From positions 1 to 64,000 of the forward strand of contig JANQLO010000047.1 of the NCBI GenBank assembly GCA_028280505.1: DNA of 64,000 nt, read 5' to 3'. The stretch comes from Chromatiales bacterium. Its GTDB lineage: Bacteria; Pseudomonadota; Gammaproteobacteria; Chromatiales; Chromatiaceae. Both the position numbers and the translations under genes were made by a program. Numbering within the stretch: position 1 is the stretch's first letter; every line of letters starts with the position of its first letter. This document shows, piece by piece, positions 6,553 to 13,832 of this stretch. The notes beneath the pieces were generated by a model. It did not search any database. It saw only the letters and a program-made list of their open reading frames with translations, and had not been told where the DNA came from.

Positions 6553-7125
6553 ATGAACTCCACTTTGCGCCATCTGCCGAACCTGATCAGTGCGGCAAGG
6601 ATTTTGTTGGTCGCCCCGATCATCTGGAGTCTGCTCGAACGCAATTTCGGCCTGGCCATCGGTCTGTTCCTGGTGGCCGGCGCATCCGACGGCCTGGACG
6701 GCTACCTGGCCAAGCGTTTCGGTTGGAGTTCGCGTCTCGGCGGTATTCTCGATGCGCTCGCTGACAAGATTCTGCTGGTTTCGACCTTCGTTTGCCTGTG
6801 GTGGCTGGCGGTGTTCCCCTGGTGGCTTGTGGTTTGGGTATTGCTACGGGACTTGGTGATCGTGATCGGGGCGACCATCTACAACTTTCGGATCGAGGCC
6901 GTCGAGCCCGAGCCGAGTTTGGTGAGCAAGCTCAATACCTTTTTACAAATTGCGCTGGCCGCCATCGGTGTGCTGCAACTCGGTTTCGGCGGTGTGCCGG
7001 AATGGTTGATGCAGACGCTGATTTGGTCGGTCATGCTGACCGTGTTGCTGAGTGGCGGCGGTTACGTACGTGAATGGGGAAGGCGCGCCCGCGCCAGGAG
7101 TGGAAATGACCACGACCACGACTGA
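6553..7125 (+). CDS. CDP-alcohol phosphatidyltransferase family protein
   Basis: This integral membrane enzyme (190 residues, about five or six hydrophobic segments) joins a CDP-activated lipid to an alcohol. The active-site motif of the family, D-x2-D-G-x2-A-R-x8-G-x3-D-x3-D, is present at about residues 44-66, with AK in place of the usual AR. The size fits the PgsA/cardiolipin synthase branch more than the PssA branch, but the acceptor cannot be decided from sequence. Its 3' end overlaps the start of the AI-2E permease gene by 20 bases. A true PssA with the same motif is encoded at 51.7 kb, so this is a second member of the superfamily in the window. Confidence 0.87.
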   Translation: MNSTLRHLPNLISAARILLVAPIIWSLLERNFGLAIGLFLVAGASDGLDGYLAKRFGWSSRLGGILDALADKILLVSTFVCLWWLAVFPWWLVVWVLLRDLVIVIGATIYNFRIEAVEPEPSLVSKLNTFLQIALAAIGVLQLGFGGVPEWLMQTLIWSVMLTVLLSGGGYVREWGRRARARSGNDHDHD

Positions 7126-8224: not shown

Positions 8225-8628
8225 AAGGTAGGTGGCGTGACAATTTCGTTTCGGGCACTAAGCCGGTAAAGCGACCTGACCGGTCGTTCGTCATTCCGAG
8301 TGAAACATTCGCTGGGATCTGCCAGTCGGTATGGACGATTTCGGCCGCTTATCGCAATGCCCGGCTTGTCATCCTGTACGCGTCAGCCGATGTATCCGTT
8401 CTCGGAGAGCTGTCGATGGTTAGGCAAGTCGGGTATGGGCCGGTTACCTTCGGGCACTTTGGGCTACACTAGAGCGGAATTCGGGATTGCAAGGTCCTAT
8501 CGAAAAAAAACAGAGCCATTATGAGTGTCCATGATTTGCCTTCGTGGATGTATTCGTTTATTGGTAAAGCCGCGAAAGTCGTCGGTCGAATCGGTCTGAG
8601 TCTGAACAGGGGAAAAAGGAGAATTGTT
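8225..8628. other. Intergenic region, left boundary of the accessory island
   Basis: About 400 bases lie between the permease and the first island gene. I see no credible gene: the open frames at 8300-8524 and the upstream extension from 8521 lack ribosome-binding sites and recognisable sequence. A purine-rich GGAAAAAGGAGA at 8610-8621 precedes the chosen ATG at 8629. The stretch may hold the promoter of the three-gene unit and the island junction, but no clear attachment-site repeat was seen. Confidence 0.4.
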
Positions 8629-8952
8629 ATGGCGGATAGTGAAGCTGCAGAAGCACTGGTTGCCAAACCGCTGCCGGAGATGATCAAGAATCTCGGCTTG
8701 GCGGTGGCCGAGGCCAATAAAGCGCTGGTTGCTGCGAATGCAGAAAACCCGAGTGCCTTGGTTGTGCATTCAGCGGAGATCGATCTCAATATTGCGGTCA
8801 CTGTCGACAAAACCAAAGAGTTTTCCGCCGAGGGTGGATTGGCGCTGAAGGCTTTCAGCATGAACGCGTCTTACGCTCGTTCATATAACTTCAAAGAAGA
8901 GGCGTCTAGCCGTATCAAACTATCGCTGAGCGCGAAGCCATTTGATCAATAG
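8629..8952 (+). CDS. Small Trypco2-like domain protein (island trio, gene A)
   Basis: The 107-residue product has no signal peptide. It consists of an amphipathic helix (LPEMIKNLGLAVAEANKAL, about residues 13-31), a beta strand (AEIDLNIAVTV), a glycine-rich turn and a last strand (SSRIKLSLSAKP). This arrangement and length resemble the trypsin-co-occurring domain 2 (Trypco2) described in NTP-dependent conflict systems; that is my pattern judgement, not a database result. GGAG seven bases upstream supports the ATG at 8629 over an upstream ATG at 8521. The next gene starts 30 bases later, and both following proteins show the same helix-strand-strand pattern. Confidence 0.6.
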   Translation: MADSEAAEALVAKPLPEMIKNLGLAVAEANKALVAANAENPSALVVHSAEIDLNIAVTVDKTKEFSAEGGLALKAFSMNASYARSYNFKEEASSRIKLSLSAKPFDQ

Positions 8953-8982
8953 TTGCTCCGTTGCTGCAGGGAGTAATGGGTA

Positions 8983-9783
8983 ATGGCAAAAGTAACGAGT
9001 TCCCGTGTAAGGCTGGCGCGCAGTCGCAGGAAGAAAGCGAGCGCGACTGCGCGTGTCGTCAGCGAGATTAAAAAACCGATTACGCTGGATGAGGTGCTTA
9101 TCGCCTTTCAGAAAAGTTTGGCGCGTTCGACCCGCAGTGCCGTCGAGTTGAGTCGTGCAGAAGCCGGGTTTTCCTTGGGGCAGCAAACCTTGTACACCGT
9201 CGATGCGTTAAACGTGTCGCTGAAGGCACATTGTTTGCCCGCAACGACAGACGGGGAAACGGTGTCGAGTATTGCGCTCGATCTGCAAACGGAGGGCCTC
9301 AAAGAACTCGAGCCTTCAACGATCGAGTTTCGCGTTCAGGGCACGCCGATCGAAGCGCTGGGTCGTGAACAGCTCTTGTTGGCGGATGGCGACCCGCTAA
9401 GAGAACGGCGCCCTCAGTACAAAATTCGTGGCACCTTGATAGGCGAACTGCCGAGCAGGGAGACAAGGCCCGCCGACAATGGAGCACAAGAGGATGCGAT
9501 CAATCTCGGGCCGCTTCCCGATCGCGACGTCAGGGTGCTGGTGGTCGGGAGCGACAGTGACACCAACGACAGAATAGATATCAAAACGAATATCGTGGGC
9601 CAGTTCGAGTTGACCATTGACGCCACGACGAATCAAATCAGTTGGGCCGGCAAGCAGGGGCGGCTGAAGAACGTCGATCTGATTGAAAAGAACGACGATT
9701 TTTATGTGTTTGCCACGAGCGCTGATCCGCTGTTGCAATCGAATATCCTTTATTTCGAAATCGATCGGGCGAATGGCCAATGA
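8983..9783 (+). CDS. Two-part hypothetical protein with N-terminal trio domain (gene B)
   Basis: The product has 266 residues. After a very basic start (about 12 Arg/Lys in the first 30 residues) comes a helix (ITLDEVLIAFQKSL, about residues 33-46) and two strands, LYTVDALNVSLKAHC and SSIALDLQTE, which align with the products of the genes on either side. The C-terminal half (about 110-266) is beta-rich with many Asp and Asn residues and is not recognised. There is no signal peptide or membrane segment. The stop overlaps the start of the next gene by four bases (ATGA), so the two are translationally coupled. The function is unknown. Confidence 0.6.
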   Translation: MAKVTSSRVRLARSRRKKASATARVVSEIKKPITLDEVLIAFQKSLARSTRSAVELSRAEAGFSLGQQTLYTVDALNVSLKAHCLPATTDGETVSSIALDLQTEGLKELEPSTIEFRVQGTPIEALGREQLLLADGDPLRERRPQYKIRGTLIGELPSRETRPADNGAQEDAINLGPLPDRDVRVLVVGSDSDTNDRIDIKTNIVGQFELTIDATTNQISWAGKQGRLKNVDLIEKNDDFYVFATSADPLLQSNILYFEIDRANGQ

Positions 9784-10142
9784 GTGACGACGACATACTT
9801 GGAGATATTCAATCCCTGCAGAGCGGCACGCGGGAAAGGGATCGGAGAGGTGCGGCCGATCAGGCTCAGTCGCAGGTACAACTCAGTGCGTTGCTGAAGG
9901 GAATGACGGTTGCCTGCACGGACTCTGCCGATCAGCTCCGTCAAACGATGCAAAAGCCGGAGTGGCAAGCGCATCCGATGTATTACACGATCCCAAAGAT
10001 GAAGGTGTCGATGAAAGTCGCCTTGTCTTACAGCCAAAACGAGGTGAAAGGCATACTCTGGTGGCGGTCGCAGGAGGGGTCCAAGGTCGACTCCATGAGT
10101 AACATCGAGATGGAAATCGTGGCGATTCCCCGCCAGGAGTAA
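9780..10142 (+). CDS. Small trio-domain hypothetical protein (gene C)
   Basis: The 120-residue product has a hydrophilic N-terminal 30 residues, then the helix VQLSALLKGMTVACTDSA, a strand MYYTIPKMKVSMKVALS, a turn with two Trp, and the closing strand SNIEMEIVAIP. The YYTIPKMKVSMK stretch is visibly similar to LYTVDALNVSLK of gene B, so the two are probably diverged copies of one domain. No catalytic motif is seen; a binding or assembly role would be an inference. The gene ends 31 bases before the convergent lipoprotein gene. Confidence 0.6.
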   Translation: MSDDDILGDIQSLQSGTRERDRRGAADQAQSQVQLSALLKGMTVACTDSADQLRQTMQKPEWQAHPMYYTIPKMKVSMKVALSYSQNEVKGILWWRSQEGSKVDSMSNIEMEIVAIPRQE

Positions 10143-10173
10143 TGGCCGATACCCGTTGGTTTTGCGCAATCCT

Positions 10174-10578
10174 TTATTCCATATCCGCTGCAATTTGACG
10201 TAGTCGTTTACTTGTCGTTTCTGCTGCGGCGATGTTTTTGTGCTTCAGATAGCGAAGTCGTTGTATTTCGAGTTTTGCCCAGTTTACAAAACGGGCGTGC
10301 GAGGCATCCTCGAATGCCGCATTGCCCGGCATCCAGTCGGACAGGAACTTTTCCCAGCGTCGTTCGGCCACGATTCGTGTGTCGGATGCCGCCGCACTGT
10401 AGAAGTCTCCGTACAGGGTTCCTTCGGCGTGTTGTCCGGCCAGGGTGTCGGGGTACAGCTCTGCCCAAACCGAACGGTACGCCGATGTAATGTCGGTTGA
10501 TTCCTCGACAGACGTGCACCCCGTCAGTAATAGCACGACGAGCGCGATCGTAAGGTTCATCGTGGTGCGATTCGTCAT
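10174..10578 (-). CDS. Small lipoprotein of unknown function
   Basis: From the ATG at 10578 the product has 134 residues and begins with a lipoprotein signal, LVVLLLTGCTS, with Cys21 as the lipidated residue. The mature part is mostly helical, rich in Arg, Ala and aromatic residues (ERRWEKFLSDW), and matches nothing I recognise. Ser-Thr-Asp after the Cys gives no strong inner-membrane retention signal. The frame is open further upstream to 10710, overlapping the amidase gene, but those extra residues would precede the signal peptide. Arrangement behind the amidase suggests co-transcription and a shared role at the envelope. Confidence 0.6.
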   Translation of the reverse strand: MTNRTTMNLTIALVVLLLTGCTSVEESTDITSAYRSVWAELYPDTLAGQHAEGTLYGDFYSAAASDTRIVAERRWEKFLSDWMPGNAAFEDASHARFVNWAKLEIQRLRYLKHKNIAAAETTSKRLRQIAADME

Positions 10579-10633
10579 CGGGGGAGTCGGTATCCGAATG
10601 CGTGTTTGCTTTTTCGCTTTGAACCGCTTGTGC

Positions 10634-11491
10634 TCACGCATTTGCACGCAAGTCATCGATGATGGCTTCCGCGATCGCTTCGGCAACCGCGTTACGAACC
10701 TCGTTGGCATTCGGGCCGGTATTCAGCAGTTCGTCGACAGCGGGCGTATCGATGAACTCGACTTCGATTAGGCAGGCGCGGGTTTTGCTCTCGCCTCGCG
10801 TGTTGCCGAGAGAGATATCGCTGAGCACGCCAAGCCGCCGATTGTTTTTGACGCCGCGGTCACGTGCGTTGGCGTCGAATCTACGAATCGCTGCAAGCAT
10901 GGCGGACTGTATGCGCTGTGCAAGCTCGCGATCCTCGCGCTCATTCACGTTTCCTTTTTCGGTAGAAAGAATCAGGGTTTCGGTACCTCTCACCGAACCG
11001 TTGAAGCCGTTGAAATGAATGCTGACAAAAACGTCTGCATCTTTTTTCGCTGCAACTTGCGCACGATCGCTCAGCCCAAGATTGGTGTCTCCGGAACGGG
11101 TAAGGTGCACCTTGATGCCCGAGCCGGGTATGCCGCTACTCAGTGCCTTAAGTTGTTTTTGCACGCGTTTGGCCAGATCCAACGTCATCGTCTTTTCCAA
11201 TACGCCGCTGGCGCTGGTGGCGTTGTTCGGTGAAGATCCGCCGATCTTCCGGTTACCGCCATGGCCGGGGTCGATAACGACGATGCCTGAAACCGCATCC
11301 GCCACGCCGTCTTCAGCGACCGGCCGCTCGCCGCCGATATCGAGGTCGAGCGAACTCAGATAATCGGAGTAACGCTTGAAAGCTCTGTTCGACAAGGTGC
11401 CCCACATGCCGTCGATGTCACCTCTGTAGTAACCCTGGTCACGCAGGAAGGCTTGGGCGAGCTTCTTGATGTCTTTGGTGCTTGCACTCAT
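10634..11491 (-). CDS. N-acetylmuramoyl-L-alanine amidase (Amidase_3 type)
   Basis: The enzyme cuts the bond between muramic acid and the peptide in peptidoglycan. Zinc ligands of the Amidase_3 fold are visible: DPGHGG, the Glu in GVLEKTMTL, SIHFN and the catalytic IEVEF. The first 60 residues resemble a peptidoglycan-binding-domain repeat (FLRDQGYYRGDIDGMWGTLSNRAF). There is no signal peptide, which is unusual for a housekeeping AmiA/B/C enzyme and recalls phage or effector amidases. The ATG at 11491 follows AAGGAG and is preferred over the GTG/ATG-type upstream extension to 11512. The gene lies in the accessory island with a lipoprotein gene behind it. Confidence 0.85.
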   Translation of the reverse strand: MSASTKDIKKLAQAFLRDQGYYRGDIDGMWGTLSNRAFKRYSDYLSSLDLDIGGERPVAEDGVADAVSGIVVIDPGHGGNRKIGGSSPNNATSASGVLEKTMTLDLAKRVQKQLKALSSGIPGSGIKVHLTRSGDTNLGLSDRAQVAAKKDADVFVSIHFNGFNGSVRGTETLILSTEKGNVNEREDRELAQRIQSAMLAAIRRFDANARDRGVKNNRRLGVLSDISLGNTRGESKTRACLIEVEFIDTPAVDELLNTGPNANEVRNAVAEAIAEAIIDDLRANA

Positions 11492-11704
11492 TTTGGAGGC
11501 TCCTTGTTCCACGAAAGTATGGGCACTTCAACCTTAGCAGACGCCCGGTCCGACGGGCGGGGTGGGAACGCCATGGGCCGTTTCCACGGGCAAAAAATGT
11601 CGTTTGATGCGTCGGGCTGGATGGGGTTGTTGCCGAATACGATATTGTCGCGAATCTCTCGGGGCAGAGCAGAGGAGGTATGTCCGATGGCCTTGATACG
11701 ATTG
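11492..11704. other. Intergenic spacer between acetyltransferase and amidase genes
   Basis: The stretch of 213 bases carries no credible gene. It contains the ribosome-binding site of the amidase at its left end (AAGGAG on the minus strand). I looked for an attC-like core site here and did not find a convincing one, so it may mark the end of the cassette-like run. Confidence 0.35.
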
Positions 11705-12208
11705 CTATGCGCGGTGTTTCGCATAGTAGTGGATATCAAATACTCGATCGTTCTTCACGACCTCTCCCCTGAGGATGCCCTCCAGTAAGTAACCGTTCTT
11801 TTCCAGCACCTTCATGGACGCCCGGTTTGGTGCGAGAACCGGGGCGAACAGCTTGTCGAACCCAAACTCCTCGAATGCAATCGTCGACATTTGCCGAATT
11901 GCCGCTGTAGCGATGCCTTGGTTCCAATAGGCTTCGCCCAGCCAGTAGCCGATTTCTGCGACATGCTTCCGCCAGCCGCTTTGGGGCGAGATGCCCACGC
12001 TACCGACAAACTCCCCGTTCCATTCGATTACCTTGGTTACCATCCCGTTTTCATGTGCGCCGGTGGTAATCCACCAATCGGCATCGGCTTTCGTATACGG
12101 GTACGGAAATGTGTCAACGAGATACCGAGAAACGTTTTCGTTATTGGCAAGAGTCGCCAATCTCTCGATATCCGATTCCCGATAACGACGCAGTGCCAAC
12201 GTACTCAT
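11705..12208 (-). CDS. GNAT acetyltransferase, RimJ/RimL-like
   Basis: The 167-residue product starts ALRRYRESDIERLATLANN, the characteristic opening of RimJ/RimL-type N-acetyltransferases, and carries the acetyl-CoA-binding region around YWNQGIATAA and the closing NRASMKVLEKNGYLLEG. Members acetylate ribosomal protein N-termini, antibiotics or small metabolites; the substrate here is unknown. The ATG at 12208 fits the family start, so the longer frame upstream is not used. It is one of four small same-strand genes spaced by inverted-repeat sequences, a layout typical of integron cassettes, in which acetyltransferases are frequent cargo. Confidence 0.85.
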   Translation of the reverse strand: MSTLALRRYRESDIERLATLANNENVSRYLVDTFPYPYTKADADWWITTGAHENGMVTKVIEWNGEFVGSVGISPQSGWRKHVAEIGYWLGEAYWNQGIATAAIRQMSTIAFEEFGFDKLFAPVLAPNRASMKVLEKNGYLLEGILRGEVVKNDRVFDIHYYAKHRA

Positions 12209-12316
12209 AACATCCAGTATAAAGGGGATGCTGCGAGGTGGTGGGATGCCCCAGTGGGTCGAAGGGGAACGCTTTGACGCGATTGTTGGGTGCGATCTTC
12301 TTGAATGAAACAAAAT
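12209..12316 (-). repeat. Possible attC-like spacer (degenerate)
   Basis: Read on the minus strand, the spacer starts shortly after the upstream gene with ACCCAAC (12285-12291), a perfect match to the RYYYAAC inverse core of integron attC sites, followed by AATCGCGTCAA, which resembles the left arm of many chromosomal attC sites. A matching GTTGGGT core at the other end was not found, so the site may be truncated. No covariance search could be run. Confidence 0.35.
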
Positions 12317-12667
12317 CTATGCCCACTCGGGCGGCCAGCCATATAACGCCATTGCCGCAAAGAAGCAGATTACCGATAGCACCGCAAACCGGTAGGACCA
12401 TACGACCGGTAGGCGATGGCTATCGCAGAACGAGACCTCTTCTGGGTTCTGACGGTCGGAATAGGCTCTTCCGGACAGATACTTGATTGTCGGATAGGCA
12501 CCAATCAGGTTGCCGTCGGTCCACATGGTTCGATAGCCGGTATGCGCCCACAGTTCCGGATACCGTGACTTGAGTGTCCTAAGAAATCGCCAAGACGTAA
12601 TACTCTCGAGCAGCAAGCCGAGAACGAAGGCATACAGGCCTATTGCCGTGGGATGAAACGATGCCAT
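12317..12667 (-). CDS. Small membrane protein, UspB-like topology
   Basis: The 116-residue product has one hydrophobic segment near the N-terminus (about residues 8-24) and a second near the C-terminus (about 90-108), with a basic cytoplasmic-like loop containing LKSRYPELWAHTG between. This two-segment layout with a Leu-Arg-rich first loop recalls UspB and related uncharacterised proteins, but the similarity is weak. No motif for an activity is seen. It reads in the same direction as its neighbours and sits alone between two inverted-repeat spacers. Confidence 0.65.
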   Translation of the reverse strand: MASFHPTAIGLYAFVLGLLLESITSWRFLRTLKSRYPELWAHTGYRTMWTDGNLIGAYPTIKYLSGRAYSDRQNPEEVSFCDSHRLPVVWSYRFAVLSVICFFAAMALYGWPPEWA

Positions 12668-12751
12668 GGGTACAGCGCCTAATGTCCCTTGTCAGCGACC
12701 GTTTCACTCGCGCGGTGCATGGAATGGGCAGGCCGCATGTGCTTATCAGGC
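12668..12751 (-). repeat. Possible attC-like spacer with paired core boxes
   Basis: On the minus strand the spacer runs from GCCTGAT (12745-12751), which overlaps the yaiI stop codon, to ATTAGGC (12677-12683). The two boxes are complementary with one mismatch and enclose a 75-bp stretch with further partial pairing, the size and form of an attC recombination site; the second box differs from the GTTRRRY consensus only in its first base. This is suggestive rather than proven. Confidence 0.4.
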
Positions 12752-13201
12752 ATTTCTTCTTTCTCTAGACAACAATTTATCAAGTTGATCGGCAAATGCT
12801 TTTCTATCGCCCTGACTTAACGCCGGTGGTCCACCCGTGGCAACTCCGCTGGCACGCATGCTCTCCAGGAAGTCCCTCATGTTAAGGCGGGCCCCTATAT
12901 TGTCTTTCGTGAAACGCTCACCGCGAGGGCTCAGAACAAACCCGCCTTTGTCGATTGCGTCCGCCGCCAAAGGAATGTCGCTTGTGACGACCAAGTCGCC
13001 TGGCTCCATCCGCTTTACGATCTCTTCATCGGCAATATCAAAGCCGGAAGCAACTTGAATCATTCTGATATGTGGTGACCGGGGTATGGGCACTTGCTGA
13101 TTGGCAATCAATGTGACCTCGACTCCAATGCGAGCTGATGCCCTGAATAGAATTTCCCTTATGACGACTGGACATGCGTCGGCATCTACCCAAATCTTCA
13201 T
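12746..13201 (-). CDS. YaiI/YqxD family protein (DUF188)
   Basis: The 151-residue product begins [21 protein letters not shown], the hallmark of the YaiI/YqxD family, a PIN-like fold whose acidic residues suggest metal-dependent nuclease activity. Other conserved blocks follow: [23 protein letters not shown] and the [13 protein letters not shown] motif. The function in the cell has not been settled. The ATG at 13201 is chosen by comparison with the family; the frame opens nine bases earlier. The gene occurs as a chromosomal gene in many bacteria, but here it sits alone among small accessory genes. Confidence 0.9.
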
Positions 13202-13280
13202 CTCAAACAACTATTTCGACATGTGTAACGCCAAGCTATACGGCGTCCGGGCGAAGCGCGCGGCGACAAACGATTTGAGC
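13202..13280 (-). repeat. Possible attC-like spacer
   Basis: On the minus strand the spacer runs from GCTCAAA (13274-13280, at the upstream gene's stop) through a GC-rich stretch containing ACGCC/GGCGT as an inverted repeat to GGCGTTACAC (core at 13223-13229). Length (58 bp), the GCGTTA core and internal pairing agree with a small attC site, but the two outer boxes are only partly complementary. Confidence 0.35.
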
Positions 13281-13699
13281 TAATTGTCGGGGTTTGCATT
13301 TGCTGCTTCCCGAATGCTCCGTATGGTTTTGTAGTACGAATGCACATTCTTGCTAAAAGTGAACCCCACGGTTACGGCCGCGAGTATCAGCAACATTGCT
13401 CCTCCAAGAGCAAGCGAGAAGTAACTTCCAGGAGATGCGCTTGATATTCCGATAAGTGCAACCAGCCCGCCCGGAAATGCCGTTCCAAAGACTACGATCG
13501 TGATCCATCTTGCCACCAGACTGTTGAATATAAGGCCGATCAGCAAAGGCACAAGAATCGCCACACCTATTGATGATGCGACGTAGCCTTCAATACTCAT
13601 ATTCTCACTAACGCTAGCCACTGAAAAGAATGCGGAAATGCCAACGAGAATGATTGCGGCTTTTAGCCAAAACGGTCTGTCGGGTGTTTCGATATCCAT
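13280..13699 (-). CDS. Four-segment membrane protein of unknown function
   Basis: The 139-residue product has four hydrophobic segments (about residues 12-30, 38-58, 63-85 and 93-112) with a short soluble start and a polar C-terminal tail ending in NANPDN. I do not recognise a family. A 7-base GTTAGGA core with GGGC before it lies just upstream on the same strand (13711-13717), the position expected for the recombination point of a cassette. G+C appears lower than in the flanking housekeeping genes, consistent with transfer. Confidence 0.65.
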   Translation of the reverse strand: MDIETPDRPFWLKAAIILVGISAFFSVASVSENMSIEGYVASSIGVAILVPLLIGLIFNSLVARWITIVVFGTAFPGGLVALIGISSASPGSYFSLALGGAMLLILAAVTVGFTFSKNVHSYYKTIRSIREAANANPDN

Positions 13700-13832
13700 A
13701 GCTTAAAGAGTCCTAACGCCCGGTGTGTGGGCGGGGGGCCGGCGCGTAGTCCCGGTCACCCGCAGGGTGATGACATGATGCACTTTTACAGGCCTTGTCA
13801 GCTGTTGATGGATTGATCCGAGTTTATCGCAC
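13700..13832. other. Spacer at the right boundary of the accessory island
   Basis: The spacer between hda and the first cassette-like gene is very GC-rich around 13721-13770 and includes the minus-strand GGGCGTTAGGA at 13711-13721. It contains CACCCGCAGGGTG (13758-13770), a short perfect hairpin. It could be an attC or attI half-site or an extragenic repeat; no integrase gene lies next to it. Confidence 0.35.

Follow-up and report, generated by a model that had tools for sequence, protein, structure and literature searches.

Organisation of the three genes

Three consecutive small genes in the window (the whole 64,000-nucleotide stretch of a Chromatiales bacterium analysed here) raise the question of whether their products are diverged copies of one domain, as an earlier note on this DNA had claimed, and of what such a set might do beside a gene for a cell-wall amidase. 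ORF calls found the three genes just where they had been placed, all on the plus strand. P0001 (8629-8952) encodes a 107-aa, diverged Trypco2-like protein with a helix and three strands. P0002 (8983-9783) encodes a 266-aa orphan, with an N-terminal helix plus strands at about residues 32-125 and a C-terminal region (about 126-266) to which no fold was assigned. P0003 (9780-10142) encodes a 120-aa orphan, and its start lies within the P0002 stop codon (ATGA). Since a Shine-Dalgarno-like GGAG precedes each of the first two genes and the third overlaps the second, the trio is tightly co-directional and looks like one translationally coupled unit. An alternative start of the first gene at 8521 would make it 36 codons longer; the start at 8629 is favoured because a good ribosome site is found there. 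No sigma-70-type promoter for the trio stood out in the sequence.

Read by eye, the C-terminal part of P0002 (window 9358-9783, residues 126-266; VRVLVVGSDSDTNDRIDIKTNIVGQFELTID...) resembles a beta-sandwich of the transthyretin/carboxypeptidase-regulatory type, with no profile match.

The trio lies in an insertion with an endolysin-type amidase

The three genes are part of a lineage-specific insertion of about 5.6 kb (8225-13832), located between the convergent, conserved AI-2E permease and hda genes. In five genus relatives the gap between these two genes is 38-657 bp, and tblastn with the window genes between 8629 and 13699 gave no match there. Moreover, the insertion is lower in GC content (0.52-0.56) than the DNA around it (about 0.61). 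The AI-2E/hda junction varies between genomes, and its versions of about 600 bp in relatives contain other possible ORFs.

Facing the trio on the minus strand is a gene (10634-11512) for a PG-binding plus Amidase_3 N-acetylmuramoyl-L-alanine amidase without a signal peptide. The protein matched Pfam Amidase_3 with E 2.1e-35 (and PG_binding_2 weakly) and the PHROG endolysins with E 1.2e-33, and its zinc-ligand motifs DPGHGG, SIHFNG and IEVEFI are intact; by profile, it is shown to be of the endolysin type. No close relative of it was found in the genus, where the only such enzyme is a large, AmiC-like housekeeping protein. The gene thus came in as part of the insertion, or in any case later than the genus split. 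Downstream of it, on the same strand, lies a gene for a small lipoprotein (10174-10578) with the lipobox LLTGC. This protein had weak PHROG matches only (best E 0.014), including one to an Rz-like spanin (E 0.038) that is probably due to the signal peptide alone.

The combination of a signal-less, endolysin-like amidase with a small lipoprotein encoded after it recalls the type 10 secretion and phage lysis cassettes (PMC10847048, PMC10109510), but the window insertion has no convincing spanin, and no holin match was obtained among its ORFs. The insertion also carries genes on the minus strand for a GNAT acetyltransferase (11705-12313; Pfam Acetyltransf_3, E 9e-30) and for a YaiI/YqxD (DUF188) protein (12746-13210; Pfam E 1.3e-47), together with two ORFs without assigned identity. 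With this other cargo, the insertion cannot be taken as a single functional unit. Read by eye and not by profile, the ORF list of the window is one of housekeeping genes.

Relatives of the window amidase on two plasmids (L168:4008-9098 and L170:2945-8172) are Amidase_3 plus Peptidase_M15 proteins of 825-829 aa, with a Trypsin_2 protease (about 860-900 aa) encoded directly after them, and this pair recurs in Paracoccus and Sinorhizobium. The window amidase was considered as part of such rhizobial amidase-protease loci. This was rejected, the proteins there being larger and differently built.

P0001 is a diverged relative of Trypco2

Trypco2 (PF19631) is the trypsin-co-occurring domain 2 of Kaur et al. 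2020 (PMC7159879); trypsin-like peptidases adjoin its genes in MoxR-vWA ternary systems (PMC7159879). The resemblance of P0001 to this domain, which had been noticed from the sequence, held up under profile searches. Against the Pfam model P0001 reached E 0.0024 and 18.5 bits, below the curated cut-off of 24.2 bits. With a wider Trypco2 set, built of sequences from other genomes and including two solitary P0001 relatives (L018 and L021), the HMMER score rose to 26.2 bits, compared to 7.8 for the best decoy among 737 taken from window ORFs and shuffles, and none of 200 shuffles reached it. When the two solitary relatives were left out, the classical Trypco2 sequences still gave 13.2 bits, with the best decoy at 6.6. 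Alignment of P0001 to the wider set with hhalign gave E 1e-5 and a probability of 82%. On the Pfam, hhalign and HMMER scores, P0001 is counted as a diverged relative of the Trypco2 family.

In keeping with this, P0001 has the N-terminal helix, the strand ending in a VTV-type motif, the GG-strand and the IKLSLS-type closing strand of Trypco2. It differs from the family in scoring under the Pfam cut-off, in being grouped with two orphans and in its surroundings: no trypsin-like peptidase or MoxR/vWA partner was recognised near it, and no peptidase was found in a Pfam scan of the insertion genes or, by eye only, in the rest of the window. The single match of the Trypco2 profile among PDB sequences, a repeat protein over 22 residues, was rejected.

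P0002 and P0003 align with each other short of significance, and neither aligns with P0001 above chance

Neither P0002 nor P0003 had a usable match in Pfam, NCBIfam, PADLOC or PHROGs (the only Pfam row for P0003 was DUF1488, E 0.21), and no protein of the trio matched PADLOC, NCBIfam or PHROG. In Smith-Waterman alignments, residues 1-130 of P0002 were collinear with P0003 over 107 columns, spanning the helix and three strands. The same register was independently obtained with hhalign, which paired residues 69-122 of P0002 with 67-117 of P0003 (E 0.12). Since 6-9% of shuffled sequences reach the score of this alignment, common ancestry of P0002 and P0003 is unproven. A profile made of the two proteins barely exceeded column-shuffled controls, and both proteins scored at decoy level against the Trypco2 profile. 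Alignments of P0001 with P0002 (shuffle fractions 0.34-0.39) and with P0003 (0.81-0.84) were not above chance.

These results divide the claims of the earlier note, which had lined up strands of all three proteins. The P0002/P0003 pairing is the best alignment by both methods, but P0001 could be aligned above chance with neither. The closing strands had to be reassigned: SSIALDLQTE of P0002, taken before as its last strand, is the middle one in the best alignment, and it is STIEFRVQGTP (112-122) that pairs with SNIEMEIVAIP of P0003. Of the three diverged copies of one domain, the Trypco2-like nature of P0001 remains, but the kinship of the other two does not follow from their scores. The sensor or adaptor role that the note suggested for the set is likewise unproven.

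A single-sequence AlphaFold2 model of P0003 (pLDDT 52, a low confidence) places helices before strands at 76-84, 89-99 and 102-113, forming a beta-meander. It is consistent with the helix-then-strands layout that had been described; it does not imply common descent. A fold search with this low-confidence model gave no PDB match at E<0.001.

Searches place the trio in a single genome

If the three proteins formed a set, homologues might be expected to occur together, as had been named beforehand. The searches lean against this. No P0002 homologue was found in plasmids, viral contigs, about 110 relatives or, at E<0.01, 321 genomes of the class, the best matches (E 0.013-0.036) being not significant. 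P0003 had none in 93 relatives, plasmids or viral contigs, and none in a scan of GTDB contigs in which one of six 8-residue peptides has to match exactly, so that it detects close relatives only. A search with P0001 and its two nearest relatives gave matches in 9 of 388 genomes, and all P0001 relatives whose neighbours were read are solitary genes. Two newly read loci of this kind (L180 and L181) contain no amidase and no recognisable P0002 or P0003 relative.

DUF2589 cassettes provide an analogue

The strand motifs of the trio prompted a comparison with DUF2589 (PF11655), and the first DUF2589 loci from other genomes were gene pairs, several with an adjoining cell-wall hydrolase gene. GTDB genomes were scanned with the DUF2589 profile, 80 of the 257 loci were kept (L084-L163, with the match at about position 7001 in most) and their neighbours were clustered. 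Note that these loci are not independent, as many come from Xanthomonadaceae and Oxalobacteraceae; others were seen in Deltaproteobacteria, Pseudomonas, Vibrio, Helicobacter, Firmicutes and a verrucomicrobium. DUF2589-A is present in all 80. A 91-aa partner follows immediately in 77 of them, DUF2589-B immediately precedes it in 74, and 35 have a third helix-plus-strands protein (two clusters). Profile comparisons with hhalign (A-B, E 2e-10; B-third, E 3e-10; a further pair among the A, B and third proteins, E 3e-8) prove, at the sequence level, that these proteins are homologous paralogues. Three genes of this superfamily stand in a row in 32/80 loci and two in 45/80.

A co-directional hydrolase gene was found near the DUF2589 genes in 56 of the 80 loci (GH108 in 25, GH19 in 24, PG-binding in 7). 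Three further loci carry an Amidase_2 or N-acetylmuramidase gene, bringing the hydrolase to at least 59/80. In the 56 loci the hydrolase gene is mostly the adjacent one (45/57 hydrolase genes within 300 bp), GH19 sometimes lying one gene beyond. Single loci outside the sample have GH24 (L081) or Amidase_3 (L037), and the GH108, GH19 and GH24 representatives are PHROG endolysins. Holin-type genes were present in 12/80 loci (PHROG holin, E 1.9e-13 for the one representative tested), LuxR-type regulators in 32/80 and a small secreted protein in 30/80. The cassette thus combines two or three proven paralogues with endolysins drawn from six or more unrelated hydrolase families; some loci add a holin, and it occurs in Proteobacteria and beyond. 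That non-homologous endolysins replace one another in this way argues strongly, if circumstantially, that the DUF2589 system has cutting of the cell wall among its tasks, and it makes the function of the cassette directly testable. We consider this cassette at least as interesting as the trio itself.

The likeness to the window is one of layout: small, signal-less helix-plus-strands proteins, two or three diverged ones in a row, with an endolysin-type hydrolase adjacent. However, P0001, P0002 and P0003 had no significant match to the DUF2589-A, -B or third-protein profiles. The DUF2589 members are larger (about 150-215 aa), their 91-aa partner is missing in the window, and their hydrolase gene is on the same strand, whereas that of the window is on the opposite one, convergent with the trio. 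Two scores, of P0003 against the DUF2589-A profile and of P0002 against the third protein, each beat 198 of 200 shuffles; as 18 such tests were made, uncorrected, they are only a hint. Membership of the trio in DUF2589 was rejected on sequence. What the cassettes do show, as far as sequence comparison goes, is that diverged helix-plus-strands paralogues occur side by side and with endolysins; whether the trio belongs with them is a separate matter. The claim that such a side-by-side set had not been described is modified by this analogue, which itself has no description, as family or cassette, in the open-access literature searched. We know of no type 10 secretion system with Trypco2 or DUF2589 proteins.

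A fold search with a DUF2589-A model (pLDDT 68) found nothing in the PDB and one relative in the viral library. Trypco2 and the third DUF2589-type protein gave a full-length hhalign match with E 0.0015 and a probability of only 16%.

A possible lysis-linked module and its alternatives

We tentatively propose that an accessory module was acquired at this variable intergenic site, a reading that we regard as possible and no better than that. The three small proteins of the trio, one a diverged Trypco2 protein and the others orphans most likely of the same helix-plus-beta-meander architecture, would assemble in the cytoplasm as a hetero-oligomer. The facing gene pair would supply a lipoprotein and a peptidoglycan amidase of phage type that has no signal peptide, and the trio would work with this amidase as the DUF2589 sets presumably do with their endolysins. 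The whole could be a device for conflict or protein release that is linked to lysis; its complex would be either the released cargo or a gate that restrains or triggers the amidase. We infer the common fold, the complex, the coupling to the amidase and the lysis-linked role from several observations: the absence of the insertion from all five relatives and its low GC, the translational coupling of the genes, the Trypco2-like P0001, the collinear alignment of the P0002 N-terminal part with P0003, the low-confidence beta-meander model of the latter, the endolysin-type amidase and the DUF2589 analogue. Against this proposal, no significant similarity links P0002 and P0003 with one another, with Trypco2 or with DUF2589, the insertion has no holin match, P0001 relatives elsewhere are solitary and without an adjoining amidase, and the trio is known from a single genome. 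The convergent orientation of trio and amidase, which share no operon, is a real weakness when set against the DUF2589 cassettes.

The same similarity data could instead mean that only P0001 is a Trypco2 protein and that P0002 and P0003 are unrelated orphans of mobile-element or moron type, alike through convergent composition and generic amphipathic patterns. The shuffles that equal the P0002/P0003 score, the lack of any alignment with P0001, the near-decoy HMM scores against the Trypco2 and DUF2589 models and the two-protein profile that hardly surpasses its controls all speak for this. It leaves aside the collinear helix and three strands, recovered by two methods independently, and a translational coupling typical for subunits of one complex, and we take it as a serious possibility, without leaning on it. 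P0001 might also act, in the role proposed for Trypco2, as the adaptor of a trypsin-like peptidase or of a VMAP/MoxR system; P0002 would then be the sensor and the amidase incidental. The trypsin-like neighbours of Trypco2 genes in the MoxR-vWA ternary systems (PMC7159879), one such neighbour in L012 (by eye) and the Trypsin_2 proteases beside the plasmid relatives of the window amidase point in this direction. However, neither the insertion nor, by eye, the window ORF list showed a recognisable peptidase, MoxR, vWA or VMAP gene, and PADLOC gave no match, which makes this reading rather unlikely.

The endolysin-type amidase and the foreign GC would also suit a decayed prophage, of which the trio would be a structural or cargo fragment with a lysis gene left beside it. 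We find this improbable: P0001-P0003 have no PHROG match, the insertion has no recognisable capsid, tail, integrase or terminase gene, no convincing repeats flank it and all its frames are intact.

Were the trio a set of diverged Trypco2-type subunits, this would make Trypco2 more than a protease accessory, and the amidase link would tie it to lysis. A broader version would place Trypco2, DUF2589 and the trio in one helix-plus-beta-meander superfamily, whose hetero-oligomers of diverged paralogues gate or exploit cytoplasmic endolysins as a widespread non-phage lysis or release machinery, with the window as an independent variant; we consider this broader version distinctly unlikely.

Two individual DUF2589 loci have other layouts. 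In L024 (6431-9049), a single strand encodes a DUF2589 protein, a 272-aa protein with a DUF2589-like start and a long C-terminal extension, another DUF2589 protein and a 92-aa protein that has a possible zinc ribbon, a layout resembling the window trio and its fused middle protein. L078 (1-6108), from a Vibrio plasmid, has genes for HlyD and a peptidase-domain ABC transporter of the bacteriocin-exporter type upstream of its DUF2589 pair, hinting at the export of something.
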